In this document: positions 29,716-45,528 of the stretch, in pieces
Layout of the letters: each line of letters opens with the position of its first letter
How positions within the stretch are numbered: position 1 is the first letter of the stretch
NCBI RefSeq assembly: GCF_023498005.1
Contig: NZ_CP097289.1
Span: forward strand, 6,572,001-6,636,000
Direction of reading: 5' to 3'
Length of the DNA: 64,000 nucleotides
Source: Streptomyces durmitorensis
GTDB taxonomy: Bacteria; Actinomycetota; Actinomycetes; Streptomycetales; Streptomycetaceae
Translations under genes and position numbers: made by a program
Notes under the pieces: generated by a model
Databases searched by the model: none
What the model saw: the letters and a program-made list of their open reading frames with translations, nothing else
What the model was told of the DNA's origin: nothing

Positions 29716-30134
29716 GGCAGACGAGCCGGGCGGACGGCCGCGTGAAGCTCCCCTCACCAGGGGCTCTTCCCGAGGAACGTCCGGGCTCCACAGGGCAAGG
29801 TGGTGGCTAACGGCCACCCGGGGTGACCCGCGGGACAGTGCCACAGAAAACAGACCGCCGGGGACTTCGGTCTCCGGTAAGGGTGAAACGGTGGTGTAAG
29901 AGACCACCAGCGCCTGAGGTGACTCAGGCGGCTAGGTAAACCCCACCTGGAGCAAGGTCAAGAGGGGCCCTGGAAACAGGACCCTGCGCGGATGATCGAG
30001 GGCTGCCCGCCCGAGTCCGCGGGTAGACCGCACGAGGTCCGCAGCAATGCGGACCCTAGATGGATGGCCGTCTCCCCGGCCGCCGCGAGGCGCCCGGGCG
30101 ACAGAACCCGGCGTACAGCCCGACTCGTCTGCCG
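29716..30134 (+). ncRNA. rnpB: RNase P RNA (class A, actinobacterial)
   Basis: The ends pair as helix P1: CGGCAGACGAG (29715-29725) with CTCGTCTGCCG (30124-30134). Inside are the universally conserved segments GAGGAACGTCCGGGCTCC (near 29772), the ACAGAAAACAGACCGCC region (near 29842), GGTAAGGGTGAAACGGTG and, near the 3' end, GCGGACCCTAGATGGATGGC. The 419-nt length fits Streptomyces rnpB. It is the catalytic subunit that trims the 5' leader of tRNA precursors. The exact ends are inferred from pairing. Confidence 0.95.
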
Positions 30135-30448: not shown

Positions 30449-30687
30449 CCCGACACCGTCCGCATCCGCTGGATGACACGGACGCCACCGAGATTGACGA
30501 CGCTGACTCCAGCGGCCAGAGGCCGTGCACTCCGGTCCGGGCGTCGGTAGGAGAGGCCGGGCACGGCATCAGCTACCGCTACTCCGACCACCGATACGAC
30601 CGGCAGTACCGCCAGGTACCCTCAGACACATCGCCAACGCGGCCCGACGGGCTTCCGTTCCACTCCGGTGGAGTCTCGAAGGACATG

Positions 30688-30724
30688 CCCCCACCCGCAC
30701 GAGTCACTTCGTGCTGCCTGGGGG
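30688..30724 (+). promoter_or_regulatory. Leader hairpin that includes the Shine-Dalgarno sequence, copy 1
   Basis: Outer stem CCCCCA (30688-30693) with TGGGGG (30719-30724) and inner stem GCACGA (30697-30702) with TCGTGC (30709-30714). The 3' arm GGGGG plus the next AA is the only good ribosome site for the start TTG at 30731. The counterpart is at 32770-32803. Confidence 0.65.
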
Positions 30725-30730
30725 AAGTCC

Positions 30731-32641
30731 TTGCTGTTCCGTGCGTCCGCGAAAACGGTCGCCGTCATGGCACTCGACGGTTCGCTGTTCCTACACCTTG
30801 CCGACCAGTTTCTTCACATGCACGGCTACCAGCCCGGAACCTCGGAGGCGCGTTCCTGGGAGCGCAGCATCCCTATTCTGACCGCCGCGCTCAACGACGC
30901 TGGCCTGGGCGACGTCGAGGTCATGCTCGAGTATGCGCTACCGCTGAACAGCAAGCGCGCCGACGTCGTCCTCGCCGGCCTGCACCCGGTCACGCAGGAG
31001 CCGTCCTACGTTGTGGTCGAGCTGAAGCAGTGGAGCCAGGTGACTCCGCACGAGGACGACCCCACCCTGTGTCATGTCGACGCCTACGCGCATCCGGTGC
31101 TCAACCCGATCGAACAGGTGCGGCGATACTGCGAGTACCTGGTCAACTTCAATGGCGCGGTGGCCGAGCATGGCGAGCGGATCCACGGAGTGGCCTTCCT
31201 GCACAACTCCACCGAGTTCGGGGTGTCAGGGTTGCGGGAGATCGAGCGCGACGGGCGGGGACGGCTCTTCACGGGGGAGCGTCGCGGTGCGTTCCTGGAC
31301 CACCTCCGGTCGAAGCTGAGTGGCAAGCACCCTGGCGCCCACGCGGCCGATGAACTGCTCGCGGGCGCCACCGCACCGTCGAAGCAACTGATGTCCGTGG
31401 CAGCCCAGGAGGTGCGGGAGCGACAGCAGTTCGTCCTCCTCGACGAGCAGCAGGTCGCCTACCGCATGGTGCTCAACGCGGTGGAGAGGGCGAAGCGCGC
31501 TGACCACAAGGAAGTCGTCATCGTCACCGGCGGCCCCGGAACCGGGAAGAGCGTGATCGCGCTCCAACTGCTTGGCGAGCTCTACCGAAGAGGTGTGGCC
31601 GCGGTCCACGCGACTGGCTCGCAGTCGTTCACCAAGACGATGCGCAAGGTGGCCGGTTCCCGGAAGCGGGAAGTCCAGGATCTCTTCAAGTACTTCAACA
31701 GCTTCATGACTACGGAGAAGAACAGCCTGGGTGCTCTGATCTGTGATGAGGCGCACCGCATCCGCGAGACGTCCGCCAACCGCTACACCCGCGCGGCACT
31801 GCGGACCGGCAGAGCACAGATCGACGAGCTCATCGACGTGGCCCACGCACCGGTCTTCTTCCTCGACGAGCACCAAGTGGTGCGCCCCGGTGAGATGGGC
31901 ACCGTGGACGAAATCCGTGAGGCCGCGGCCAGACGGGGCATTGACTGCAATGTCATTCCTCTGGACAGCCAGTTCCGCTGCGGAGGTAGCGACGCCTACC
32001 TGCGCTGGGTGGTCCGACTCCTCGGCCTGGAGCCCGGTGGGCCGGTCGGGTGGGAGCCCGATGACCGCATGCAATTACTGGTCGCCGACAGCCCTGAAGA
32101 GCTGGAGGCGTTCCTCGATGCCCGGCGTGGCGAGAAATACGGTGCCCGGATGTCTGCGGGCTACTGCTGGCGGTGGTCTCCCGAGCCCAAGCCCGGCGTC
32201 CCCCTGCCTCTCGACGTCGTCATCGGGGGCTGGGAGCGGCCTTGGAATCTGCGCGGCGACCGGTCGGTTTCCGGCGCGCCGCCGTCCGCGCTGTGGGCCA
32301 CCGACCCCGCGGGCTTCCGGCAGATCGGCTGCGTCTACACCGCCCAGGGGTTCGAGTACGACTGGTCCGGCGTCATCATCGGCCCGGACTTGGTTTGGCG
32401 GGGCAACCGCTGGATCACCGACCGCTCCGCCTCCAAGGACCCGGTCTTCAAGAAGTCCGTACCCGACACCGATGTGGACCGTCTTATTCGGAACACGTAC
32501 AAGGTTCTGCTGACTCGAGGCATGGTCGGCACGATCGTCTACTCGACCGATCCGGAGACGCGGGAAAAGCTGCGGGAATTGGTGTCTGCCCGACCGGAGC
32601 CACGGCCTGCCGCGGTCGAGGGGCCCCTTCTGCGGCGATGA
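30731..32641 (+). CDS. Schlafen-group-3 (DUF2075) helicase with N-terminal PD-(D/E)XK-like domain, paralogue A
   Basis: TTG 30731 is preferred because GGGGGAA lies six bases upstream, as in the paralogue; ATG 30767 is the alternative. The 636-residue product has an N-terminal nuclease-like core with Asp78 (KRADVVLAG) and Glu97-x-Lys99 (VVVELKQWS). An SF1-like helicase domain follows: Walker A GGPGTGKS (267-274), DEAH (339-342), FFLDEHQVVRPGE, QFRCGGSDAYLRWV, CVYTAQGFEYDW and NTYKVLLTRG. The DUF2075 family is now described as the Schlafen group 3 helicase. It likely acts on nucleic acid in phage defence, by family and context. It carries one TTA codon (32075-32077), so bldA tRNA may limit its translation. 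Confidence 0.85.
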   Translation: MLFRASAKTVAVMALDGSLFLHLADQFLHMHGYQPGTSEARSWERSIPILTAALNDAGLGDVEVMLEYALPLNSKRADVVLAGLHPVTQEPSYVVVELKQWSQVTPHEDDPTLCHVDAYAHPVLNPIEQVRRYCEYLVNFNGAVAEHGERIHGVAFLHNSTEFGVSGLREIERDGRGRLFTGERRGAFLDHLRSKLSGKHPGAHAADELLAGATAPSKQLMSVAAQEVRERQQFVLLDEQQVAYRMVLNAVERAKRADHKEVVIVTGGPGTGKSVIALQLLGELYRRGVAAVHATGSQSFTKTMRKVAGSRKREVQDLFKYFNSFMTTEKNSLGALICDEAHRIRETSANRYTRAALRTGRAQIDELIDVAHAPVFFLDEHQVVRPGEMGTVDEIREAAARRGIDCNVIPLDSQFRCGGSDAYLRWVVRLLGLEPGGPVGWEPDDRMQLLVADSPEELEAFLDARRGEKYGARMSAGYCWRWSPEPKPGVPLPLDVVIGGWERPWNLRGDRSVSGAPPSALWATDPAGFRQIGCVYTAQGFEYDWSGVIIGPDLVWRGNRWITDRSASKDPVFKKSVPDTDVDRLIRNTYKVLLTRGMVGTIVYSTDPETREKLRELVSARPEPRPAAVEGPLLRR

Positions 32642-32769
32642 GCACGTGATATCCAGCCATGATCTCCGTGCTTCCAGCCGACCGACGTGTCATGTGCGTC
32701 GCGGCGGAGCGTCAACTCCCTAAGATCCGAAGTGTCATTGCGGTCCGACGGGCTTCCCACGTGGACATG

Positions 32770-32803
32770 CCCCCATCCGCACGAGTCACTCGTGCCCTGG
32801 GGG
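32770..32803 (+). promoter_or_regulatory. Leader hairpin that includes the Shine-Dalgarno sequence, copy 2
   Basis: Outer stem CCCCCA (32770-32775) with TGGGGG (32798-32803), inner stem GCACGAG (32779-32785) with CTCGTGC (32789-32795), loop TCA. The 3' arm is the ribosome site for GTG 32813. An upstream block CCGACGGGCTTCC (32745-32757) is also shared with copy 1 (30644-30656). Confidence 0.65.
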
Positions 32804-32812
32804 ATCCACCTC

Positions 32813-34936
32813 GTGTCCATGCTCCTGCTGAAACTGGCAGCGCAGGATCTGCTGACCCTGAATTCAAGACGCCGTATGGTGCCCCATCTCGCCGCGAGGT
32901 GGAAGCACTTCCTCAACACCGACGCTTCGTTGACCGAACGCTCCGCCTGGGCGGAGAGCCTTGTGCATCTTGCCGAGGATCTGGTCGCCGCCGACCGCGG
33001 GAACGTCGAGATGGTCGTCGAATGCGCTGCCACCCTCGACGAGGCAGACCGCGCTGGGGATCCGCGGCTCATCGATGTCGTCCTCGTGGGCCATCATCCC
33101 GAAGAGCGCGGGCTGTCCGTTCAACTCGTCGAGCTGAAGCGTTGGTCGACGGTGACCAGGGTGGAGCGAGCCACCGCGGAACTGGTGCATGTCCCCGGCA
33201 TGGGAGAGAAGAAGCATCCTGCGCTGCAACTGCGCGAGTATCACGCGGCTTTCACGGGTGGCAGAGGGCCGCTGCACGGACTGAACTTCGAATGTGGCGG
33301 CTTCGCCTATCTGCACAACGCCACCGACGCCTCGGTGCTCCCACTGGTCGGCGTGGACGCGCCGACCGGTTCCTATGCCCGGGTCTATACGAGTGACCGT
33401 CGCGCCCAGCTGCTGTCGGACCTGCGGAGCAGCTTCGCGGCCGACGGTGCCGACTCGGCGGCCGAAATCCTGCTACGGGGCATGGGTCTGCGTAACACCC
33501 CTCTGCTCGACGCCATGATTCGCTCCAGTGGCGAGGACACGGTCTTCACCCTGCGTGGACGTCAGAAGAAGGTCGCGGACCAGATCCTCGACACTGCCGC
33601 CAAGGTGCTCCCCGATCCACAGCGGCCGGCGCTCCTCCCCGACGAGCGACGGGTGGTGTTCCTCGTCACCGGCGGTGCCGGTACCGGCAAGAGCGCCATC
33701 GGCCTCCAGCTCAAGGCCGAACTGGAGGCGGAGGGCCGCACGGTCAAGTACGCGAGCGGCAGCAGAGCGTTCAATGGCGCCCTGCAGGAGCATGTCGGCT
33801 ATGGCGACCGGGAGTTCAAGGAGAGTTTCACTTACTTCAGCAACTTCGTCACCCCGCCCGATCCGCCTCTGGACGTGCTGATCTGCGACGAGGCCCACCG
33901 CCTGCGCGATCGCTCCACAAATCGCTTCTGGGATCCCGAGGACTATGGCACCAAGCCACAGGTGGACGAACTCCTCGATGCCTCCCGGTTGACGGTGTTC
34001 TTCCTGGACGAGGGGCAGTCAGTGCGCCCGCAGGAGGTCGGCACCGCCGCTCTCGTGGAGGACGCTGCACGGCGCTACGGCGCCCAGCTGGTCCCTTGCC
34101 CCTTGTGGGAACAGTTCCGGTGCGGTGGCAGCGACACCTACATCCGCTGGGTGCGTGGAGCGCTAGGGGTGTTGGACGCGGAGCCGGAGCAGTGGACCCC
34201 GGACGGGCTGATGCACGTTGAGGTAGTGGACAGCCCGGAGGAGCTCGAGCGGATCATTCGCTCCGAGGCCGTGGCGGGAGCGTCCGCGCGCATGGTCGCC
34301 GGATACTGCTGGCCCTGGACGAAGCCCTTGGGCAAGGAGAAGCGGCTCGAGCCCGACGTCCGGATCGGTGATTGGCACCGGCCGTGGAACGCGGACAGCG
34401 AATCCTTCTGCGAGAACAAGACCGTCCCGCCTTCCAAGATCTGGTCTGTGCACGAGAACGGCCTCGGCCAGATCGGCTGTGTGTACACCGCGCAGGGACT
34501 GGAGTGGGACTGGTGCGGCGTGATCATGGGCGACGACATGGTGCGCCGGGGCGACAGCTGGGTGTTCCGTCGGGGCAAGGAGCGAGTGGACAAGGAGGTG
34601 GAGGTCAAGCGGGTCGCCGTTCCCGGATCGTTCGATCCCAAGGTGAAGCCGAAGAGCGTGGACGACGACGAGTTCGCCCGTCTCGTACGGCACGCGTACC
34701 ACGTGCTGATGACCCGGGCGAGCCGGGCGACCGTGCTCTACTCCACGGATGAGGAGACCCGGAATTACCTGAAGCGACTCGTCGGCGAGGTCCAGCTACA
34801 CGGTCTGCGACCCACCTGGGAGAACCTGCCGGAGCAGGCTCGCCAGCCGCATCTGCCCCGACCCGGCCGAGGACAGCGCCGCCGCAGGAGGCGCCAGAAG
34901 GAGAACACCCCGCCCGGGGAGATGCGTCTCTTCTGA
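32813..34936 (+). CDS. Schlafen-group-3 (DUF2075) helicase with N-terminal PD-(D/E)XK-like domain, paralogue B
   Basis: GTG 32813 has GGGGGA nine bases upstream; ATG 32819 is an in-frame alternative. The 707-residue product parallels paralogue A. It has Asp88 (RLIDVVLVG), Glu107-x-Lys109 (QLVELKRWS), Walker A GGAGTGKS (287-294), DEAH (359-362), FFLDEGQSVRPQEVG, QFRCGGSDTYIRWV, CVYTAQGLEWDW and HAYHVLMTRAS. It has a longer basic C-terminal tail (GRGQRRRRRRQKE) that could bind nucleic acid. Overall similarity to paralogue A is clear but moderate, so the duplication is old or they were acquired together as a two-gene module. Confidence 0.87.
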   Translation: MSMLLLKLAAQDLLTLNSRRRMVPHLAARWKHFLNTDASLTERSAWAESLVHLAEDLVAADRGNVEMVVECAATLDEADRAGDPRLIDVVLVGHHPEERGLSVQLVELKRWSTVTRVERATAELVHVPGMGEKKHPALQLREYHAAFTGGRGPLHGLNFECGGFAYLHNATDASVLPLVGVDAPTGSYARVYTSDRRAQLLSDLRSSFAADGADSAAEILLRGMGLRNTPLLDAMIRSSGEDTVFTLRGRQKKVADQILDTAAKVLPDPQRPALLPDERRVVFLVTGGAGTGKSAIGLQLKAELEAEGRTVKYASGSRAFNGALQEHVGYGDREFKESFTYFSNFVTPPDPPLDVLICDEAHRLRDRSTNRFWDPEDYGTKPQVDELLDASRLTVFFLDEGQSVRPQEVGTAALVEDAARRYGAQLVPCPLWEQFRCGGSDTYIRWVRGALGVLDAEPEQWTPDGLMHVEVVDSPEELERIIRSEAVAGASARMVAGYCWPWTKPLGKEKRLEPDVRIGDWHRPWNADSESFCENKTVPPSKIWSVHENGLGQIGCVYTAQGLEWDWCGVIMGDDMVRRGDSWVFRRGKERVDKEVEVKRVAVPGSFDPKVKPKSVDDDEFARLVRHAYHVLMTRASRATVLYSTDEETRNYLKRLVGEVQLHGLRPTWENLPEQARQPHLPRPGRGQRRRRRRQKENTPPGEMRLF

Positions 34937-34989: not shown

Positions 34990-35118
34990 TCAGAAGACCA
35001 GGCGTGCTGCCGCGATCAGGGCCGCCACCAACAGATTGATGGCGACTCCTACCGTGACGTCGACCAGAATCTGACGAAACCGGTCGCGACGTGCAGGCTT
35101 GTACTCAACGGTATTCAT
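34990..35118 (-). CDS. Membrane micro-protein, 42 residues
   Basis: ATG 35118 with GGAG nine bases upstream opens a 42-codon frame. The product has a basic amphipathic N-terminus (MNTVEYKPARRDRFRQIL) and one membrane helix (VTVGVAINLLVAALIAAARL), then stops. Codon third positions are G/C-rich as in real genes. It lies between helicase B and the giant helicase, on the opposite strand. It resembles the many one-helix small proteins of Streptomyces (some catalogued as DUF6408), but I cannot assign it. A toxin-like or defence-accessory role is possible only by position. Confidence 0.6.
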   Translation of the reverse strand: MNTVEYKPARRDRFRQILVDVTVGVAINLLVAALIAAARLVF

Positions 35119-35182
35119 CGGTTTCCACTCCAGAGCGTGAGCTGGGAATGGCAGGGATCGCCCTACCGGGCATCCGCAGTCA

Positions 35183-35202
35183 CACCGCGTACGTACGCGG
35201 TG
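35183..35202. promoter_or_regulatory. 20-bp perfect palindrome between divergent genes
   Basis: CACCGCGTACGTACGCGGTG is symmetrical over all 20 bases. It lies 65 bases upstream of the micro-protein start and about 155 bases before the predicted promoter of the giant helicase, as expected for an operator. Confidence 0.6.
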
Positions 35203-35357
35203 GAAACCACTCGTCGCTCATCGCCGAGGACCGGCACCTGGAACACCGTCGACGTACCCTCCGGGAAGGTGCGCAGCGGGTAACCACGTTAGTACATGCA
35301 CCAGTTGTTGCAGATGGGCATGCCGTAGCAGCGATTGAACCGTTCCGTAACTATCGC

Positions 35358-35386
35358 TTCACGCATTGGTGTGCTGACCGTATTAT
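35358..35386 (+). promoter_or_regulatory. Predicted sigma-70-type promoter for the giant helicase
   Basis: TTCACG (35358-35363) and TATTAT (35381-35386) are 17 bases apart. TATTAT is rare in this GC-rich window. The start codon is at 35529, which would leave a leader of about 135 bases. Confidence 0.5.
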
Positions 35387-35528
35387 TCGCGTCCAGGGGG
35401 GATCAGCGGGACTTGTGCGGCCACCGGGACAGTACGGACGTTGGTGGCCGCGCTTTGCGTTGGTGGCAGAGGGGACTGCCGCCGACGCCGTGCTCCGTTG
35501 GCCCAGAAGCGACAACTCAGGGATCAGC

Positions 35529-38500
35529 GTGACGAACTCGGTTAGCTTCGGGGACAGCCAGGAACTCGATCGCCTCAAGGCGATGCTTGAGAGCTGGCGC
35601 ACATCGCTGGTGGACTTGAGCGGCCGCAACCGGCTGCTCAATTTCCGCCACACCAAGTCGGCGACACTGGAGATTGCCAACCCATCCGCGCGGGAGCTTG
35701 TCGAAGGGCTGGCCCGTGGTTGGGACTTCGCGCCGCTCCCGGACGAGGAGCCGGAGGCCGGCGAGGGTTCGCGATCCGGCGATGTGGTCCTCGCGAAGAA
35801 GGGCGACCGCACTGACGGAATCGTCACCCAGAAGAACACCGCGCCGTCCCTCCTGCGCGCGTTGAACAGTCTCCGTGCCAAAGCGACGCAGCTCTTCAAC
35901 GACTATGGCCTGTGGACCCTCAACCTCGGCGTAGGCATGCTCCGCTGGCGCGAGGACGGAGCGGAGACAGCCAGTGACGCCCCCCTGATCCTTATGCCGG
36001 TGGTCGTCGAGCGCACGCGCAACGGCCGGATCCGCCTCAAGGCGAGCGATGATGAGGAACCGCGCCTCAACCCGGCCCTGAAAGTAAAGCTGCAGCAGTT
36101 CCACATCGACTGGACTCCGGTCGTCGAACAGGGCCCCTCGGACCTGCAGGCGGTGCTCTCCGCCGCGCGAGCCGCGGTGGCGGGCAAGGCCGGATGGCAG
36201 ATCTCCGAGCGTGTGGTGCTCGCACTCTTCGCCTCCCACAAGGAGTCGATGTATCAGGACCTGCTGGACAACGAGGACTGCGTCCTCGGCAGTGACCTCA
36301 TACGGGCGATGGCACTCGGCCCACATTCCGGACTGGCCTCCGACCGTTTCGACTTCGAGGAGATCCAGCTCGACCGGATCGACGAACTGAGCCCGCCCGA
36401 GGACAGCCCGCTGGTGCTCGACGCCGACGCCTCGCAGCGGCAGGCCGTCGCCGCGGCCGTGGCCGGACAGTCGTTCGTCCTGGACGGTCCGCCCGGCACA
36501 GGCAAGAGCCAGACCATCACCAACATGATCGCCGGTCTGATGCACGCGGGCCGGAGCGTGCTGTTCGTCAGTGAGAAGGCGGCGGCCCTCGACGTCGTCC
36601 TCGCCCGGCTGAAGGCGGTCGGACTCGACTCGTACGCATTGCCCCTCCACAGCCACAACACCAGCCGTAAGGCGGTGGCCCAGGAGCTGGGTCGGGCCCT
36701 GGCGGAGGAGCCGCGTGCACCGCAACTGTCACAGCAGGCCCTGGCGCAGGCCAGGGAACTGCGCCTTGCGCTCAGTGCTTATGCCGAAGCGATGAACGAG
36801 GCCCGCGACCCGCTGGAACGAACCCTGCACGATGTGCTCGGCCAAGTCGGCCGCCTGTCCGATGCGCCGGTCGCTTATTTGAGCCATGGCGACGACCCGG
36901 CCACGGGGGCAGGCGCGACGTTTCGCGCGGAGACGCTCAGTGCCGAGGACCTCCGCCTGATCGTCGAGGCGACGAGAGCCATCTCCGATGCTTGGGAGGC
37001 GGTCGCCGACCCGTCGTTCCCCTGGCGCGGCCTGCGAGCCGGCCTGCCGCATCCACGTCCGGTGCTTGAGCAGGCGCAGGCAGCGCGGGACGCGCTCGCG
37101 ACAGCGGTCGACCGGTACCGGGACCTCGCGCTTGATGGTGCGCCCATCACCGACCAGAGCGGGATCGACCGTCTGGCTGCGCTCCTGCGGCTGCTCGACA
37201 CGCGGAGTCCCGTGCCGGAAGAGTGGCTGACCACGGATGCCTTTGCCGACGAGGTGGACGACCGGGTCGACGCCTTCCTTGCGGAACTGCGCAAGGCGCA
37301 GCGTACGAGCACCGCCGTCCGGGCGACGGTGGGCGAGCGGTGGCAGGAGCTTTCCACCAGGCTGACGGCTGAGCCGGGGGAGGCCGAGAAGTCGCTCTCG
37401 GCGATGGCGCCGCGAGGCCTCGACCTCACCGAGCTCATGCAGGAGCGAGCGCGACAGTTCGCCGGGGAGTTCGATGCGACCGCCGGCGTGCTGGAGCGGA
37501 CCCTGCAGAATCTGACCCGCGTCAGCCACCGCACCGGGCTCGCGCACCCCAGCAGCCCCGAGGAAGCACGCCATCTGTGTGACGTGATCGCCGTGGCCGG
37601 TACCGAACACCGCCCTCCCGAGCAGTGGCTGGTCCCCGAAGGTCCCGTGCGGGCGGAGGAGGCGGCGGTCGGGGTCGTCGCCGATGCGCTGAGTGACTTC
37701 TTCACCCGACGCAACCAGGTGGTCTCCGCCCAAGCCCTCGCGACGGACCACGCGGGCCCGGGTTGGACCGAACTGCGGCGAGAAGTGAGCGCCGAGCGAC
37801 CGGTCAACGAACAGGCACTCGCCGCACTGGAACCCCCCGGCACCGACATCGCGTCGCTGACAGGCAGAGAGGCCGCGGAGCTTACCCAGCGGTTCGACAC
37901 GCTCGCCGACGCACTTGAGATGGCCGCCGGGCACGCCGACTCGTTAGCCGGACACCTCGGGTGCGACCGGCCGAGGGCGATGTCCGAAGCGGAGGACCTG
38001 GCCACGCTCGTGGAACTGGCCGCAGCATCGGACCGCACGCTCGAAGCATGGCTTGATCCCTGGGCACTTCCCGGTGTCCAGGCAGCTGTTGCGGAGATCT
38101 CCGCTGCCGCCGATGACCTGGCAGCCGCGGAGAGGGCGGCGCGTGACACCTTCCTGCCCGAGATCGTCTCCACGCCTGAACTGCCCGAAGCGGTCCACCG
38201 GCTCCTGGAGGGGCGCCAAGGACTCGCCGGAACGTTGTCCAGTGGCATCCGGGCCGACCGGAAGCTCGTGGCCCGGCTGACGCACGGCGGATCATGGCGC
38301 GGCGAGCTGTACGACAAGCTGCCGCTTGCCGACGCCTGGTGCGCCGCTCACCAGAGGCTGAGGGCGCTGGCCGCCACCCACGCCGAGCTGATGGGTCGCT
38401 ATCGCGGCACGGTGTTGCCCGACGTCCCAGGACTGCTCAAAGCACTCGCGCACGCCGAAGAGGTCCACGCACTCGCGCCGGAGACCGTCGCCGACCCCTA

Positions 38501-41500
38501 CCGCAGGAGTCTGCTCGCCACTCACGTGGCCGACGGCCGAGACCTGCACCCCGCACTCGTCGATCAGGGAACGGCGCTTCGCGGCGGTCTCGCCGGATGG
38601 CGGCAGAATCTGGACGACCCGTCGCTCGCGCCGCACGCGGCCGACCTCACCAAGCTGCCGCTCGACGCCGCAGCCCGCTGGCTGCGCGCCCACCTCGCTC
38701 CCTTGAGACAGGCCGTTGCGTTGCTGGACACGGTGGCCTCGGTCGGCCGCCGGGACAGTGGCCCGGGTTCCGAGTACACCCTCACCGCCGCGCGCACGGC
38801 GGTGAGGACCGCGCACGCGGCACAGAAGGAGACCGCCGCGTTCGACGGCCAGGCCGTGAGCGACCGCAGCCTTCTCGGCCCCTGGTACCGGGGCCTCGAC
38901 ACGCAGGCGGACGACCTGCGCGACGCCGCGCCCAACGGCGCGACGGGTTACGAGCCGATGGGGCGGCTTCTGTGCCGCGGACTCGACCTGACGCGACAGC
39001 GTCCGGGACCGTACACCACCGCGCAACAGCGCGAGTTGCTCGGCCGGTACGTCATGGAAGGGCGACCACACACCGAGGGCTTGCGGGTGGCCCTGGACTC
39101 GGCCCGTCTCATCGCCCGCCTTGCCCTCGGCACGCTCGCAGAACCAGCATGCCGGACCAGCCTCGTCGACGTGCTGGCCGACGGCCGGCCCGAACCGCGC
39201 GACCTGCTCGCACAGACCGACCAGATCCGCCATGACCTGGACCTGTGGCAGGAGTACACCGGACAGTCGCACGTCGCGGCGGTCGGCGCGGCACTCGCCT
39301 CCTGCTCCCTCGAACAGGCGGCGAGCTGGCTCCGTGCGCACGTGGAACCCTTCGAGGATGCGGCCGACCTCACCCGCTCAACCGCCCGAGTCATGGACGA
39401 GGAGACGGGGCTCACCCTGTCCCGGGCCAGGGAAGCGGTGGCCGCCGTCGCCTCCGCCCGCGCCGCCGAGTCCTCCTTTGCGGAGAACGACGCCACGTAC
39501 CGAAGCCTTCTCGGTTCCCTCTACCAGGGCACGGGGACGGGCCGGGACGCGATCCTGGACGCCCTCGACTGGGCCCAGAAGGTCCGTCGCACCGCACATG
39601 GCGGCCACTCCGCGCCCCTGTCGCAAACGGCGGCCCGGCTGATGCTGACCGCGTCAGCAGATCCGTCCGTCGCGGCCCGCGCCGGTGACTGGGGCGGGCA
39701 GCGCGAGGCACTCGCCGGGCACTTCGAGCCTGCGCGCGCCGAGGAACTGCGACGCGAACTCGCCGGATCCCTCACGACGGCCCAGTCTGTCCTGTCACTC
39801 CTCGAGCGTGACCCCTTCGGCCCGGAAGCGTGGACCAGCCGCGCCGACGCACTGACCCTGTTGCGCCGCTACCACCTCCACGAGCTCCCCGACCAACTCG
39901 CACGCCGCGAAGTCTCCGCCGAGGACTTCCCCGCAGCCATGGAACGCGCGGTGCTCACCGCGTGGGTCGAGCACCAGCTCACCACTGACCAGAGGCTGAA
40001 GCCGATGCGGGCGGTGGAACGCGATCAGCTGGTGGAGCGCTTCCAGAGGGCGGACCAGGACCTGGTGGCGGCGGCACACGCCGAGGTGATCGCAGCATGC
40101 AACTCCCGGCGTCCTCGCAGAACGTCGGTGGGTCAGGCCGCCGTGATCCGCCGCGAGGCCGAGAAGCAGCGTCGCCACATGCCCGTACGGCACCTGCTGA
40201 AGCAGACTCGCGACGTCGTAAGGCTGGTCAAGCCCTGCTTCATGATGAGCCCGCTGACGGTCAGTCAGTTCCTGCCACCGGACTTCGACTTCGATGTCGT
40301 CATCTTCGATGAGGCGTCCCAGGTGCTGCCCCAGGACGCGGTGAACTCCGTCTACCGGGGCAAGGCCCTCATCGTGGCCGGTGACCAGAAGCAGCTGCCG
40401 CCGACGTCCTTCTTCACCGCGGCCGGCGACAGCGACGACGGCGACGAATGGGACGAGGACGCCGCCGACGGCTTCGAGTCCATCCTCGACATGTGCAAGG
40501 CCAGCGGAGTCCTGCGCGGACTGCCTCTGCGCTGGCACTACCGCAGTCGGCACGAGAACCTGATCGCCTTCAGCAACCACGACTTCTACGACAACTCCAT
40601 GGTCACGTTTCCGGGCGCGCTGGAACAGGGACCGGACATCGGCGTGGAGTTCATCAAGGCGGACGGCGTCTACGACCGCGGCGGGAGCAGCGACAACCCC
40701 GTCGAGGCCGCCAAGGTGGCGCAGCGTGTCATCCACCACTTCGACACCCGCCCCGAGCACACCCTCGGCGTGGTCGCGCTGTCGAAGTCGCAGGCGGAGG
40801 CAGTCGAGGAGGCGGTGCAGAAGGCGAGGGCGGCCCGACCGGACCTCGACCACCACTTCACGGAAGGCCGGCTCGACGGGTTCTTCGTCAAGAACCTCGA
40901 AACCGTCCAGGGCGACGAGCGCGACGTCATCATCCTCTCCATCGGCTACGGTCCCGACCACCGCGGCAAGCTGCTGTCGGCGTTCGGCCCCATCAACCGG
41001 GAAGGCGGCTGGCGACGCCTCAACGTGGCCGTGACACGCGCCCGGCGCCGCATGGAAGTCGTGGCTTCCTTCCACGGAGGCGATCTGCCGGACAGCGCCA
41101 AGAAGAGCGTGCAACACCTGAAGCGGTACCTGCAGTACGCCCAGCACGGTCCTGCGATTCTCCAGACGGAGGCAGCCGATCCGGACGCGGCTCCGGAGAG
41201 CCCCTTCGAAGAGGAGGTCATCGACATCCTGCGCGACTGGGGGTACGAGGTCCAGCCGCAGGTGGGGGTGGCCGGTTTCCGTATCGACATGGCGATACGG
41301 CACCCGGGTGCGCCCGGCACGTACGCGCTGGGCATCGAGTGCGACGGCGCCATGTATCACTCTTCGCGGGCGGCCCGGGACCGCGACCGGCTGAGGGAAG
41401 CGGTCCTGCGCGACCTGGGTTGGAAGCTGCACCGAATCTGGGGAACGGACTGGTACCGGAACCGACGGGACGCGATGGCGCGGCTGCGGGCCGCGGTGGA

Positions 41501-42299
41501 ACGGGCGTGTGCGGAGGATCCGCATGCGGTGCGGGTGACGCCGCCCGTGACGGTGGAGGTCAGCGACGGCGGCCGTGGCGATGACGGCGGTACGGCGGAG
41601 CCCGTGGACGGTCTGAGGAGCGCAGGGCGCCATGCATCCGCGGAAGGGCGGGCAGGCGGTCGGTCGGTCCCGCGTGTGGAGTTCGTGACGGTCGACGAGG
41701 GCCCCGCACCGTGGAGTCGCCCCTACCAGGATGTGGATCCCGACCTGTTGGCAGAGCTGCGTGTGGAGTCGAGCAACCGGCGGGGCATGTCGGGTGTGGA
41801 GCTGCAGGACCCCGATGCTCTCGACGTGGTGGCGGAGGTGGCGCTGTGCGTCGTCGAGGTGGAAGGGCCCGTCGAGAGGGAGGTGGTCTACACCCGGGTC
41901 CGTCTCGCGTGGGATCTCGGACGATCCGGCCAGGTGGTCCGCGACCGCATCGACCGGGCTCTTCGCCACTTGCTCAAGCAGGGCAAGATCGTCAACGTAG
42001 GTACGGCCTACGACGTACCCGGCCATGAGACGGAGTTCGCCCGCACGTCGACAGAGTGGTGCGCTCGACGCGTGGCGGAGGTTCCGGTGGTGGAACGGCA
42101 GCTCGTGCTGAGAAACGTGGTCGCCGAGGGACCGGGCGTGCACCGGGAGGACTTGCTGCGGGAGGCCGCCCGCTTCTTCGGGTGGGCGCGGCGGGGCGCC
42201 GACATCAAGGAGGCTCTGACCGGCGACATCGACGCGTTGATCGCGACCGGGCACTTGGCCGAATCGGAGGGCGGCCTAATGCCTGCGGAGGCATCTTGA
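35529..42299 (+). CDS. Giant DUF4011-helicase-Vsr-like nuclease-DUF3320 protein (Hhe-type defence protein)
   Basis: GTG 35529 with AGGGA upstream is chosen because the family N-terminus (ELDRLKAMLESWRTSLVDLS, then GRNRLLNF at 29-39) begins just after it; the open frame continues upstream without homology. The 2256-residue product has DUF4011 (about 10-190) and a split SF1 helicase: Walker A GPPGTGKS (320-327) and DEAS (1594-1597), GDQKQLPP, LETVQGDERDVIILSIGYGP. A Vsr/MTES_1575 PD-(D/E)XK nuclease follows (Asp1920 in RIDMA, Glu1937/Asp1939 in GIECDG), then DUF3320 at about 2070-2256. The single-gene DUF4011-helicase-Vsr arrangement was named Hhe among experimentally tested antiphage systems. 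A helical insert of about 1250 residues separates helicase motifs I and II. One TTA codon at 37944. Confidence 0.9.
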   Translation: MTNSVSFGDSQELDRLKAMLESWRTSLVDLSGRNRLLNFRHTKSATLEIANPSARELVEGLARGWDFAPLPDEEPEAGEGSRSGDVVLAKKGDRTDGIVTQKNTAPSLLRALNSLRAKATQLFNDYGLWTLNLGVGMLRWREDGAETASDAPLILMPVVVERTRNGRIRLKASDDEEPRLNPALKVKLQQFHIDWTPVVEQGPSDLQAVLSAARAAVAGKAGWQISERVVLALFASHKESMYQDLLDNEDCVLGSDLIRAMALGPHSGLASDRFDFEEIQLDRIDELSPPEDSPLVLDADASQRQAVAAAVAGQSFVLDGPPGTGKSQTITNMIAGLMHAGRSVLFVSEKAAALDVVLARLKAVGLDSYALPLHSHNTSRKAVAQELGRALAEEPRAPQLSQQALAQARELRLALSAYAEAMNEARDPLERTLHDVLGQVGRLSDAPVAYLSHGDDPATGAGATFRAETLSAEDLRLIVEATRAISDAWEAVADPSFPWRGLRAGLPHPRPVLEQAQAARDALATAVDRYRDLALDGAPITDQSGIDRLAALLRLLDTRSPVPEEWLTTDAFADEVDDRVDAFLAELRKAQRTSTAVRATVGERWQELSTRLTAEPGEAEKSLSAMAPRGLDLTELMQERARQFAGEFDATAGVLERTLQNLTRVSHRTGLAHPSSPEEARHLCDVIAVAGTEHRPPEQWLVPEGPVRAEEAAVGVVADALSDFFTRRNQVVSAQALATDHAGPGWTELRREVSAERPVNEQALAALEPPGTDIASLTGREAAELTQRFDTLADALEMAAGHADSLAGHLGCDRPRAMSEAEDLATLVELAAASDRTLEAWLDPWALPGVQAAVAEISAAADDLAAAERAARDTFLPEIVSTPELPEAVHRLLEGRQGLAGTLSSGIRADRKLVARLTHGGSWRGELYDKLPLADAWCAAHQRLRALAATHAELMGRYRGTVLPDVPGLLKALAHAEEVHALAPETVADPYRRSLLATHVADGRDLHPALVDQGTALRGGLAGWRQNLDDPSLAPHAADLTKLPLDAAARWLRAHLAPLRQAVALLDTVASVGRRDSGPGSEYTLTAARTAVRTAHAAQKETAAFDGQAVSDRSLLGPWYRGLDTQADDLRDAAPNGATGYEPMGRLLCRGLDLTRQRPGPYTTAQQRELLGRYVMEGRPHTEGLRVALDSARLIARLALGTLAEPACRTSLVDVLADGRPEPRDLLAQTDQIRHDLDLWQEYTGQSHVAAVGAALASCSLEQAASWLRAHVEPFEDAADLTRSTARVMDEETGLTLSRAREAVAAVASARAAESSFAENDATYRSLLGSLYQGTGTGRDAILDALDWAQKVRRTAHGGHSAPLSQTAARLMLTASADPSVAARAGDWGGQREALAGHFEPARAEELRRELAGSLTTAQSVLSLLERDPFGPEAWTSRADALTLLRRYHLHELPDQLARREVSAEDFPAAMERAVLTAWVEHQLTTDQRLKPMRAVERDQLVERFQRADQDLVAAAHAEVIAACNSRRPRRTSVGQAAVIRREAEKQRRHMPVRHLLKQTRDVVRLVKPCFMMSPLTVSQFLPPDFDFDVVIFDEASQVLPQDAVNSVYRGKALIVAGDQKQLPPTSFFTAAGDSDDGDEWDEDAADGFESILDMCKASGVLRGLPLRWHYRSRHENLIAFSNHDFYDNSMVTFPGALEQGPDIGVEFIKADGVYDRGGSSDNPVEAAKVAQRVIHHFDTRPEHTLGVVALSKSQAEAVEEAVQKARAARPDLDHHFTEGRLDGFFVKNLETVQGDERDVIILSIGYGPDHRGKLLSAFGPINREGGWRRLNVAVTRARRRMEVVASFHGGDLPDSAKKSVQHLKRYLQYAQHGPAILQTEAADPDAAPESPFEEEVIDILRDWGYEVQPQVGVAGFRIDMAIRHPGAPGTYALGIECDGAMYHSSRAARDRDRLREAVLRDLGWKLHRIWGTDWYRNRRDAMARLRAAVERACAEDPHAVRVTPPVTVEVSDGGRGDDGGTAEPVDGLRSAGRHASAEGRAGGRSVPRVEFVTVDEGPAPWSRPYQDVDPDLLAELRVESSNRRGMSGVELQDPDALDVVAEVALCVVEVEGPVEREVVYTRVRLAWDLGRSGQVVRDRIDRALRHLLKQGKIVNVGTAYDVPGHETEFARTSTEWCARRVAEVPVVERQLVLRNVVAEGPGVHREDLLREAARFFGWARRGADIKEALTGDIDALIATGHLAESEGGLMPAEAS

Positions 42300-42371
42300 C
42301 CTCTTGGGGTGAGCCGCTCTCATACCGTCCGGGGCGCTGAGCCCGCAGGCGAAAGGCGTGGCGCGAGAAAC

Positions 42372-42400
42372 GGTGTCGGCCTGACGGACAGGCCGACACC
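42372..42400. terminator. Bidirectional hairpin terminator
   Basis: A perfect 12-bp stem (GGTGTCGGCCTG with CAGGCCGACACC) and a 5-nt loop, between the convergent giant helicase and the type IV restriction gene. Confidence 0.85.
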
Positions 42401-42416
42401 CGTGCTCTCCGCGTCG

Positions 42417-44219
42417 TTATTCTTCCGCCGATCTGTTCAGTTCGCACAGAGTCCGGTGGTAGTGCAGGTACGTCTCATCGATCTGATGGCCATCGTGTAC
42501 ATGAAGGCTTCCCAAGGAATCGCCCGAGTGTGTTCGCCTCACGATGCCGTCGACGTCGACGTAGATTTCGAGTCCGTCGAAGAGAACGTGGTGATTGGGG
42601 CACAGACAGAGCAGGTTCGGCAGTTCATCCGGACCGTCGTGCGGGGAGCCGAGCCCCCGGATGTGGGCAGCCTCGCTGTAGGGCCTGCGCTTGTACTCGA
42701 GGCGCGTTGCACACACCTGGCAGGCATGACCGTGCAGTTCCTTCACCTGAAGGACGATCGCGGGGTTGCGGACCGGCCGTGAGTAGGTGGTCTCTCGGCG
42801 CGCGGTCGGTCCAGCCGCCCGTTCCCTCTCGGTGACTTCCTGGCCGCGTTCCTCTTCGTCCTCGTCAGGCAGACCGTCTGCCGTGGCGTAACCACCGAGT
42901 CCCACCTGACTCAGCACCTCCCGCTGATCGACGTCGGCGAGATAGGTGCTGCACAGCTTGAGCACGGCCTCCAGGCGGGTCAGCGGGTTTTGCAGGAGGT
43001 CGGCGCTTGCGTGTGTGAGCCCTGCGACCGGTTGGAGAGTGTTGAGAATGCCCAGCTGCGGCATCGGACCCGCATCGCTCGGTATCCCGTGCACTTCCCA
43101 CAGGCCACTGCCCTGCAGGTGCCAGAAGGGGTACTCGGGGGTGACCCTTGAACCGGGCAGTCCGAACTCAGCCAGAAGAGGGCCGACCTCCGAGCGGAAA
43201 ACAGACCACGGCGCGAGGCGCGGCTTTCCTGCCGCGATGCGGGAGGCCGCCCACAGCAGAGACAGTGGTTGGTGCCGACTGCGTGCGGTGCCCTCTGATC
43301 GGCGATGAGTGTTGAGAGAGCCGAGCCGTTCCAGCAGCTTCTCCGGAGTCAGCCGGGCCGGTACCGCTGAGGGTGAAGTCAGGGAGCGGGGTAGGCGCGG
43401 TCGGGACCTCACCGGGAGAAGTGGAGCAACACGACGGTAGTCCTCGGCTGATCGCAGGGTAAGGCTGCGCAAGGGTGCAGGAACGTTCAGGCGCTGCAAG
43501 ATGGGCGCGGCCAGCACACGAGTGGGGAACTCTTCGACTTCCCCCAGCGCCATGACGTGCTCCCACGTGGAACCGTCCTGATTGATTCCCCAGACTTCCT
43601 GCGCCGCAAGCGGGCTGTTGAAGAGATGGAGGATGCGGGCGCGAGCGATGAAGTGATTCTCCGCGTAGAAGAAGACGTCGTCGCCGACGCGGCGCTTTCG
43701 CAGCGCTCGCACTTTTTCGTTGTTGGTCTGGGTGGTGGGGGTGGAGCCCCACAGCCGTGCTACCCCATCCGGGTACAGGCCGGCCAGTGTCTCCGCATGC
43801 TCACCGAGTACTTGCCTGACATCGGCCAGGCGTATCCCCCGGCGTACCGACTTGGCGAAGTTCTGTGGCCCACGCTCCCGAGCGCCGCCGCGAGGCTGAA
43901 GAACCATCTGCGGCGTTGTCTCCTGCTCGCCGTCCGCGACAGTGGCTCCTTCTTGCACAGTGAAGCCGAGGGCCCGCAGACGACGTGCCACCGTGTTGGC
44001 GCCCCCGCTGAAATCATCGGCCGACAGCAGGTTGCCGGCCGAGTACAAGTGCGCGACGCCCGCGATGGCCTTCGAGTCAAAGCGGTCGCCTTCCAAGACC
44101 AGCTCGTACGTCATCGCTCGGCCGAATCCGTACTGACGGCGAAACGTTTCGCGCCCCAAACGCTGACACTCCTGGACCGCAGCCAGTACGCCTGCGCGCG
44201 TTATATCCCCAAGTCCCAT
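42417..44219 (-). CDS. Type IV restriction endonuclease, ScoMcrA-like (head, SRA-like, sulfur-binding and HNH domains)
   Basis: The 600-residue product has the layout of Streptomyces coelicolor ScoMcrA. An N-terminal head domain (about 1-92, FGRAMTYELVLEGDRFDSKA) is followed by an SRA/EVE-like region (about 115-260, VFFYAENHFIARARILHLFN). A sulfur-binding domain comes next (about 305-390, SRHQPLSLLWAASRIAAGK, then PEYPFWHLQGSGLWEV). A C-terminal HNH nuclease ends it (about 493-560, HACQVCATRL, SEAAHIRGLGSPHDGPD, NLLCLCPNHHVLFDG). The family cuts near phosphorothioated and, for some members, 5-methylcytosine DNA. It would restrict modified foreign DNA and would be lethal in a phosphorothioating host. 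Confidence 0.87.
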   Translation of the reverse strand: MGLGDITRAGVLAAVQECQRLGRETFRRQYGFGRAMTYELVLEGDRFDSKAIAGVAHLYSAGNLLSADDFSGGANTVARRLRALGFTVQEGATVADGEQETTPQMVLQPRGGARERGPQNFAKSVRRGIRLADVRQVLGEHAETLAGLYPDGVARLWGSTPTTQTNNEKVRALRKRRVGDDVFFYAENHFIARARILHLFNSPLAAQEVWGINQDGSTWEHVMALGEVEEFPTRVLAAPILQRLNVPAPLRSLTLRSAEDYRRVAPLLPVRSRPRLPRSLTSPSAVPARLTPEKLLERLGSLNTHRRSEGTARSRHQPLSLLWAASRIAAGKPRLAPWSVFRSEVGPLLAEFGLPGSRVTPEYPFWHLQGSGLWEVHGIPSDAGPMPQLGILNTLQPVAGLTHASADLLQNPLTRLEAVLKLCSTYLADVDQREVLSQVGLGGYATADGLPDEDEEERGQEVTERERAAGPTARRETTYSRPVRNPAIVLQVKELHGHACQVCATRLEYKRRPYSEAAHIRGLGSPHDGPDELPNLLCLCPNHHVLFDGLEIYVDVDGIVRRTHSGDSLGSLHVHDGHQIDETYLHYHRTLCELNRSAEE

Positions 44220-44499
44220 GCGCGGGGAGCTTGGTAGGACAGTATGACAATCACTGGTCTACCTCGATCCGGTAGCGCTCCGACTGTTGCCCGGTCGCCG
44301 TCCCGTCGTCGGCGCGAGAAAGCTGTCGCTGACTGCGAGCGGGGCGCGCTCTGCAATTCGAGTCGAATCTGCTGAAGGTCCGCCCTTCACCAACTCTTCT
44401 CGTGTCTCATGCAGCCACTAGGATGCGGCAGGAGGGTGTCATCGGGGGGAACGGTGGCCTTCGAGGGACACGAGGAGCGGGGAACAGGCATGCGGGAAG

Positions 44500-45528
44500 G
44501 CGGTCTATTGGCGGCTCACCGAACGGCTCACCACCTCCAGTTTCCCGCCCAGCGCGCTGCGGCCCGTGGTCGACGCCTGGTTCTACGCCCTGGAGGAGGA
44601 CGCCCTCGCGGCCGGCGCGACCGAGGAACAGCTTCCGAGCGAGGTGGAGAAGCTCCTCGCCGCACGGCTCGCCGAAGTCTCCCGGCACGCCCCGTCGTTC
44701 GCCACAGCTCTGCGCGGCTACCGGGCTGCGCTCGCGGACGGCGACGAGGCAACCGCCGCGGCCGTGCTGGCATGGCTCGGCGGTCAGCCGCACGTCGCGG
44801 CCTCCGCTCGCCGGGCCGCCGGGGTACGCGGGGACCTTGACCACTTCGGCGCGCTCGGGTTCCTGCAGGGGCTCCTCACTGTGCTGCGCGACTCCGGGCA
44901 CACCGGGCTGTTCGTCGTCCTAGACGAGGTGGAGACGCTGCAGCGGGTCCGGTCGGATGCCCGTGACAAGGCACTCAACGCGCTGCGACAGCTCATCGAC
45001 GAAGTGCACTCGGGTCGCTTCCCCGGCCTCTATCTGGTCATCACGGGCACTCCGGCCTTCTACGACGGTCAGCAGGGTGTGCAGCGTCTGGCCCCGCTCG
45101 CGCAGCGGCTGGCCACCGATTTCACCACCGACCCGCGCTTCGACAACCCTCGCGCCGTACAGATCAGGCTTCCCGGCTTCAACCAGGAGTCCCTGGTCGG
45201 GCTCGGCCTCACCATCCGCGACCTGTACGCCGATGCCGCGGTAATGCCCGAGCACGTGCGGAAGGTTGTCGACGACGCGTACGTCGCTGATCTCGCGACG
45301 GCCGTCGGCGGGGCGTTGGGCGGCAAGGTGGGAGTGGCTCCCCGGCTTTTCCTGAAGAAACTCGTCGGGGACGTGCTCGACCGCGTGGACCAGTTCGACG
45401 ATTTCGACCCCCGGCAGCACTACCGGCTCACCGTCGCCGGTAGCGAACTCACTGACGTCGAGCGAAACTTGGCGGCCAGGATCTCCGGTGACTCCGCGTC
45501 GGCCGATGACATCGACCTGGAGCTGTGA
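44500..45528 (+). pseudogene. brxD: BREX ATP-binding protein BrxD, N-terminally truncated
   Basis: Homology begins at AVYWRLTERLTTSSFPPSAL (44500) in a frame opened by a stop at 44419-44421. There is no ATG, GTG or TTG until GTG 44566 and no Walker A motif, which full BrxD (about 440 residues) carries near residue 65. The rest is intact: Walker B LFVVLDEVETLQRV, YLVITGTPAFYDGQQGVQRL, FTTDPRFDNPR and the C-terminal DPRQHYRLTVAG. Roughly the first 100 residues are lost. The protein, if made from GTG 44566, could not bind ATP normally. Its stop overlaps the start of brxHI (TGATG). Confidence 0.8.

Follow-up and report, generated by a model that had tools for sequence, protein, structure and literature searches.

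A candidate cis-acting leader RNA with a predicted Shine-Dalgarno hairpin upstream of one nuclease-helicase gene family in the class Actinomycetes

How are bacterial nuclease-type defence enzymes kept quiet until they are needed? This control is largely an open question, and a locus of Streptomyces durmitorensis raises it twice over. The window (the whole stretch of DNA that was analysed, 64,000 nucleotides of contig NZ_CP097289.1) contains two neighbouring genes, H1 and H2, that encode Schlafen-type helicases. The human Schlafen helicases SLFN11 and SLFN14 are among the nearest systems known, and a statement in one article, itself citing a preprint, holds that several Schlafen-linked prokaryotic systems are able to act against phages (PMC12839542). 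The original prediction was that both genes share a leader hairpin whose 3' arm is the Shine-Dalgarno sequence. Its coordinates proved exact when arms and start codons were located again (Table 1), and the element turned out to be larger, and much more widely distributed, than first described. What kind of element is this, which genes carry it, and what might recognise it?

The encoded proteins combine two activities by prediction. Both match the SLFN-g3_helicase family (PF09848) at 300.6 bits (H1, E 2.3e-89) and 311.4 bits (H2, E 1.2e-92) against a cut-off of 24; they are 38% identical in alignment, and the helicase motifs are present in H1 in the alignment of the family. In the N-terminal region, E67, D78, E97 and K99 are invariant among 40 sequences and form the E/D...D...ExK active-site pattern that marks a PD-(D/E)XK nuclease, and most of the fold matches listed for H1 residues 1-230 are nucleases that we take to be PD-(D/E)XK enzymes. 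Pfam reported no nuclease domain in H1 or H2, and a sequence search of solved structures returned nothing informative. The closest recorded H1 homologues also have 636 residues, and conservation of the protein sets in at the TTG or GTG start codon. In comparison with PADLOC, H1 and H2 gave weak or partial matches only (the best being PDC-S41, E 1.1e-20, for H1), and neither passed an NCBIfam cut-off.

The two genes had been proposed to form a defence operon. The defence part of this proposal fits the surroundings, as the locus adjoins Hhe/ProA-like and BREX-type genes, but the operon part fits less well, since H1 and H2 each have a complete leader and a -10 box of their own. The island 3' of H2 (35091-47726) includes a Hhe/ProA-like DUF4011 protein, a match to a type IV restriction enzyme (42417-44219, minus strand), a BrxC/D-family ATPase (44566-45528) and BrxHI (45525-47726). 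On the other side, the H1 leader is preceded, at a distance of about 500 bases, by the RNase P RNA gene (29722-30131); a similar sequence resembling the 3' part of RNase P seems to be present upstream in some relatives too (for example L060, L068 and L125), so the locus may often adjoin rnpB.

Table 1. Leader elements and nuclease-helicase genes in the window, with the basis of each assignment.
Feature	Position	Strand	Basis
-10 box TACCCT (predicted), H1 leader	30617..30622	+	TANNNT position statistics
P1 box GCGGCCCGACGGGCTTCC, H1 leader, hairpin GCCC-GAC-GGGC	30639..30656	+	box match and covariance model
P2 linker hairpin, H1 leader; 30658-30663 pairs with 30668-30673	30657..30680	+	folding against shuffles; pair counts in 33 linkers
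GGACATG and P3 hairpin, H1 leader: CCCCCA 30688-30693, GCACGA 30697-30702, TCGTGC 30709-30714, 3' arm TGGGGG 30719-30724 (Shine-Dalgarno sequence)	30681..30724	+	sequence, folding
H1: N-terminal PD-(D/E)XK-like nuclease domain and Schlafen group 3 helicase; TTG start at 30731; 636 aa	30731..32641	+	Pfam, invariant residues, helicase motifs, fold matches
-10 box TAAGAT (predicted), H2 leader	32721..32726	+	as for the H1 -10 box
P1 box GCGGTCCGACGGGCTTCC, H2 leader	32740..32757	+	covariance model
Short linker CACGT, GGACATG and P3, H2 leader: CCCCCA 32770-32775, GCACGA 32779-32784, TCGTGC 32790-32795, 3' arm TGGGGG 32798-32803 (Shine-Dalgarno sequence)	32758..32803	+	sequence, folding
H2: nuclease and Schlafen group 3 helicase, paralogue of H1; GTG start at 32813; 707 aa	32813..34936	+	Pfam; alignment to H1

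Across leaders the element keeps one order: a -10 hexamer, a box that can form hairpin P1 (GCCC-GMC-GGGC), a linker, GGACAYG, hairpin P3, and a gap of mostly 6-9 nt (5-10 in nearly all leaders) between the Shine-Dalgarno sequence and a TTG or GTG codon. P3 itself reads CCCCCA-(CCC)-GCACGA-loop-TCGTGC-(TGCC, CC or less)-TGGGGG. The box, GCGGCCCGMCGGGCTTCC, is 18 nt long and nearly invariant, and it contains the second shared block, CCGACGGGCTTCC, that the original prediction had placed upstream of both hairpins and that is thus a real part of the element. With up to three mismatches the box is found in all 126 helicase-linked leaders of the Streptomyces scan described below, and in 97 it is identical. 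The A and G of CAYG are present in 230 of 230 leaders, which were collected by a mismatch-tolerant pattern. Loop and linker are variable; the arms and the unpaired bases (CAYG and the CCC of the 5' joint) hardly vary. The linker is a hairpin (P2) directly after the box in H1-type Streptomyces leaders, and it is short in H2-type leaders and many others.

Where the transcript would begin matters for any model of an RNA element. Among leaders with at most one box mismatch, 211 of 224 distinct upstream stretches have a TANNNT hexamer whose first base lies 17-26 nt ahead of the box, compared with a mean of 19.8 and a maximum of 29 in 200 shuffles. A full sigma-70 consensus promoter with a -35 box was not found at the H1 and H2 leaders. 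As the TANNNT sits upstream of the box, the predicted transcript covers the entire element; a transcription start below the hairpin, the finding named in advance as fatal to a hairpin switch, is thus not what the putative promoter suggests.

Both copies in the window stand out from their background. The 23-nt core of P3 has two matches at up to three mismatches and none in 100 shuffles, and the covariance model finds the H1 leader at 30638-30724 (106.6 bits) and the H2 leader at 32739-32803 (55.2 bits). Folding z-scores against dinucleotide shuffles are -2.4 and -3.9 for stretches of 74-75 nt, and -1.5 and -2.5 for about 150 nt. The predicted folds contain additional outer pairs, AAGGAC with GTCCTT in the H1 leader and GTGGACATG with the start-codon region in the H2 leader; such pairs near the start codon differ among subfamilies, and their conservation is not claimed.

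The association of the leader with its gene is nearly exclusive. In 392 Streptomyces genomes, the 5' arm (up to one mismatch) was found in 91; the stretches retrieved contain 137 places, 126 of which lie directly before a helicase of the H1/H2 family. The remaining 11 are eight other sequences that have no matching 3' arm, two complete orphans (L080 and L086) and L084; inspection by eye of the open reading frames downstream of these helicase-less places revealed no other clear client. In the class Actinomycetes, model R1 (37 leaders) had matches in 39 of 394 genomes, from 22 of the 137 genera, at 49 places in all; a helicase of the family follows at 48, at least three of them damaged (L189, L201 and, with an apparent frameshift, L183), and the 49th, the second place of L204, is a relic without the gene. 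Scans of genomes from three other taxonomic families gave matches in 33 of 130, 12 of 85 and 2 of 5 genomes, with the helicase in 36 of 37 resulting loci (three of which repeat class places, and not each place yielded a locus); the DNA of the other, L394, ends too soon. A phylum-wide draw, for which the in-class share is not given, had matches in 6 of 396 genomes, all six in Actinomycetes. Leader-bearing genera include Streptomyces, Yinghuangia, Nonomuraea, Herbidospora, Streptosporangium, Humibacillus and Phycicoccus. Leaders without the gene amount to five orphans or relics (L080, L084, L086, L248 and the second place of L204), and a second client gene family was not seen in these scans.

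Seen from the protein side, box and P3 precede 88 of 92 H1 orthologues by hand count (at least 60% identity, N-terminus covered), the exceptions being L129, L139, L143 and L148; distant relatives (about 50%) are mostly without the leader, and it is absent from L139, L143, L148-L151, L153, L155, L157 and L159, in a comparison for which most loci were fetched because they bear P3. The protein is about 55% identical in other genera while the leader is nearly unchanged. In most of the tandem and convergent gene pairs that were seen, each gene has its own leader. The divergent H1/H2 pair of L129 (G167:C99:109700-110800) departs from this: box and 5' arms are missing around the start codons, and the two facing 3' arms form one shared hairpin over both Shine-Dalgarno sequences, as if the DNA separating two leaders had been lost by a natural deletion (compare L107). 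L084 (2584-2668, minus strand; 73.8 bits) keeps box and linker with P3 as one unbroken helix (CCTCCACCCGCACGA and its complement), and the 2.5 kb downstream contain no helicase. Furthermore, MT836681.1 (L359:2418-2486), an unannotated 9.2-kb sequence from human faeces entered as 'Bacteriophage sp.', has a leader and a 57% homologue of H1, and may be actinobacterial DNA or a phage-borne copy.

The box is a near-perfect dyad (GCCCG-M-CGGGC) whose spacing from the -10 box is fairly uniform, and it could also be a DNA operator, lying below the transcription start and bound by a transcription factor, with P3 setting a fixed low level of translation. An exact box scan of named genomes (names taken from the first 80 of 119 loci) returned at least 131 matches. 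Among the matches listed, each of the 79 that lead to a helicase has P3 too (recognised by pattern in 73 and by eye in 6), 48 have neither, and four have a P3 match without the helicase (one by chance, one decayed copy in Actinacidiphila and two where the DNA ends). The exact boxes without P3 that are listed lie away from helicase genes, and of the 33 of these 48 that are named, 8 belong to actinobacteria and 25 do not, a distribution that does not suggest a regulon. Moreover, in leaders with at most one box mismatch the non-symmetric flanks of the box are conserved like the dyad in column counts, the linker that joins the box to P3 is prone to folding, and P3 hardly varies, a constancy for which passive occlusion has no use. 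We consider an operator quite improbable.

The predicted occlusion of the ribosome-binding site is strong. In 228 of 230 leaders the GGGG of the Shine-Dalgarno sequence has an unpaired probability below 0.2 (median 0.0001), a level that shuffled flanks commonly reach too (234 of 300) in this GC-rich DNA; a value below 0.01 is reached by 72 of 75 leaders (80 drawn at random, five without a usable stretch dropped) compared with 90 of 300 with shuffled flanks. For GGGGG the values are 0.004 (H1) and 0.001 (H2), and 0.004 for the GTG of H2. Replacing the 5' arm in silico opens the H2 site (0.475); the H1 Shine-Dalgarno sequence is still paired elsewhere (0.021). By prediction, the Shine-Dalgarno sequence therefore lies within a conserved hairpin near the start codon, as in a sequestering leader. 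Such strong occlusion is also what a passive or temperature-dependent hairpin that holds a dangerous nuclease low would provide. Stability would suffice for this task and a fixed sequence would be unneeded, yet the arms and unpaired bases hardly vary, and we regard a hairpin of either kind as very improbable.

Linkers of 14 nt or more also tend to be hairpins: 68 of 100, a set of related sequences with a few long false matches from coding DNA, equal or surpass 95% of mononucleotide shuffles in folding. Among covariance-model linkers de-replicated at 80%, 12 of 26 and 12 of 31 do so, where about 5% is expected (mean z about -1.7; the two sets overlap, and that of 31 comes from other genera). 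A helix between the box flank UUCY and the RGA that precedes P3 was considered and is suggestive only: rare matched changes occur in L199 and L191, the test patterns favour conserved leaders, and extension of the helix into the linker amounts to 0.70 bp compared with 0.58 bp by chance. Because linkers do not clearly extend this helix, the claim is limited to their tendency to be hairpins.

Covariation, the check proposed at the outset, has low power and gives a weak signal, because the arms of P1 and P3 hardly vary. A MAFFT alignment of 37 Streptomyces leaders has two double-change pairs compared with 0.4 expected (reached by 19 of 500 shuffles). Covariance-model alignments, which are biased towards the given structure, were used because alignment A1 misplaced the 3' arms of H2. 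For 108 distinct leaders, mostly from Streptomyces, such an alignment has three double-change pairs compared with 0.8 (10 of 500 shuffles), 123 of 500 shuffles attain the score of the structure, and sliding it by two columns gives 2-3 pairs and 7-8 double-change cells compared with four cells for the structure itself. The 79 distinct leaders chosen from other genera give four pairs and five cells compared with 0.7 and 0.8 (0 of 500 shuffles, and 0 of 500 for the score); slid structures have at most two pairs and four cells, and one nearly equals the score (0.044 against 0.045). Double changes thus exceed shuffles in other genera, but slid structures partly rival the proposed one; the lack of covariation that had been set beforehand as a refutation is therefore not seen, though the margin is slim. 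Double-change examples in P3 include CCCCUA/UAGGGG (L145), CCUCCA/UGGAG (L198) and CUCCCA/GGGAG (L372). In P2, the 7-bp stem of 33 equal-length linkers has eight double-change cells compared with 3.4 in shuffles (0 of 500), all in one pair, and this number of pairs is not above shuffles. Overall, P3 is well supported by stability and conservation, and modestly by covariation.

Some leaders depart from the common form in their own way. In a Streptomyces subclade (L134, L137 and L138) CGGGAG, closer to an ideal Shine-Dalgarno sequence, replaces TGGGGG, with a mismatch or shifted pairing in P3. A fourth helicase subgroup (L142, L160 and L161; about 43% identical to H1) has the box GCGGCCCGCCAGGCTTCC and CCTCCACCCGCAAGG, and its P3 may refold by pairing CAYGCC with GGCGUG in place of the usual inner stem.

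Several other candidate explanations were rejected. A leader peptide starting at the ATG within GGACATGCCCCC does not fit the codon (of 230 leaders, 154 have ATG, 66 ACG and the other 10 neither) or the varying loop lengths. A transposon or REP-like repeat does not fit either, as the host's own genome has the core (up to one mismatch) only at H1 and H2 (two forward and no reverse matches) and in other genomes the core tracks one gene family. A phage-borne element finds no backing in the box matches listed, which include 32 viral contigs, none of them with P3 or the helicase. No intrinsic terminator was found at the H1 and H2 leaders.

In type III toxin-antitoxin loci, a short RNA element lies directly upstream of a nuclease gene, and on a similar reading the leader would be excised as a small RNA and join the nuclease-helicase in a complex, as cofactor or antitoxin, with P3 partly stopping read-through. 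The tight pairing of RNA and gene and the predicted promoter immediately before the leader agree with it. Unlike those loci, the leaders have no tandem RNA repeats and no terminator-like site, and the protein is a nuclease-helicase fusion; in addition, paralogues mostly keep their own copies though one trans-acting copy would suffice. A small RNA of this kind seems extremely unlikely.

Taken together, the conservation of the element, its position and its folding speak for a translational leader that acts in cis. We propose that it is a structured, cis-acting leader RNA that belongs to one gene family and is spread through the class Actinomycetes, and that the encoded nuclease-helicase is its likeliest partner, a reading drawn from sequence comparison to which we give a probability of about one half. 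Transcription would begin just upstream of the box, as the -10 box suggests; the RNA would fold as P1, P2 and P3, and with the Shine-Dalgarno sequence paired in P3 the predicted default would be low translation. A specific partner probably recognises the leader, because bases not fixed by pairing (the box flanks, the A and G of CAYG and the CCC of the joint) are nearly invariant. Since paired genes mostly keep separate leaders, the action is probably in cis, and as only one client family is seen, its own product would be the simplest partner to assume. The nuclease-helicase may therefore bind its own leader, stabilise or open P3 and so set its own level, and it may be drawn off the leader when it engages foreign nucleic acid. 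Autogenous control of this kind is our best guess, and the observation that points to binding between protein and leader is the near-exclusive association of RNA and gene.

The main rival to autogenous control is an RNA sensor, a riboswitch-like trigger for the nuclease-helicase in which a ligand from outside the system binds P1 together with P3 and so exposes the Shine-Dalgarno sequence; the ligand could be a small molecule, a cellular RNA, or a protein that is made or lost on infection or stress. The near-invariant unpaired bases are aptamer-like, as are the two conserved domains with a variable linker between them, and a sensor would allow induction on demand. Ligand-sensing leaders often govern several gene families, yet here there is a single client family, and neither a junction nor a pseudoknot is shown, so that we think a sensor unlikely. 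Tentatively, and with more doubt than trust, P1 and P3 could be seen as the binding site of an ancient class-wide ligand, either the nuclease-helicase or an infection signal, with translation released upon invasion.

How does the leader compare with what is known? Translational riboswitches and RNA thermometers sequester the Shine-Dalgarno sequence in a hairpin whose 3' arm shortly precedes the start codon, and the same placement is found at H1 and H2. In contrast to them, the leader here has no known ligand and a single-family client; in riboswitches the ligand-binding core is conserved and the expression platform variable, whereas here the arms are invariant. Sequestration of the Shine-Dalgarno sequence is thus a well-known mode; the RNA family is new in that it is not in Rfam 15, and the client gene is unusual. 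At gathering score, RNase P (29722-30131) is the only Rfam 15 family that passes in the whole window, and between 29800 and 35400 the leaders have no match even at E<=1. The leader motif strings did not occur in the literature searched, and none of the DUF2075 literature, judged by titles, concerns such a leader; within Rfam 15 and this literature, the earlier statement that no element of this form is described holds. Among papers on candidate RNAs (PMC2864571 and PMC7247131), the latter deals with autogenous ribosomal-protein leaders, which offer the parallel of a structured 5' leader restricted to one gene family and one lineage, and strong conservation that suggests recognition by a protein. 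The client here is a nuclease-helicase, not a ribosomal protein, and no Rfam family matches.

One RNA, more conserved than its protein, serves a single nuclease-helicase family across many actinobacterial genera, and the near-unchanging leader seems to point to a dedicated, undescribed switch that would time a probable defence enzyme. The leader is a marker with which helicase genes, including those with non-ATG starts, can be found and annotated, and a defined RNA bait for the partner; Streptomyces is among the hosts, and leader-reporter tests are routine there. It may also be a possible handle on a family whose eukaryotic relatives, the Schlafens, restrict viruses.
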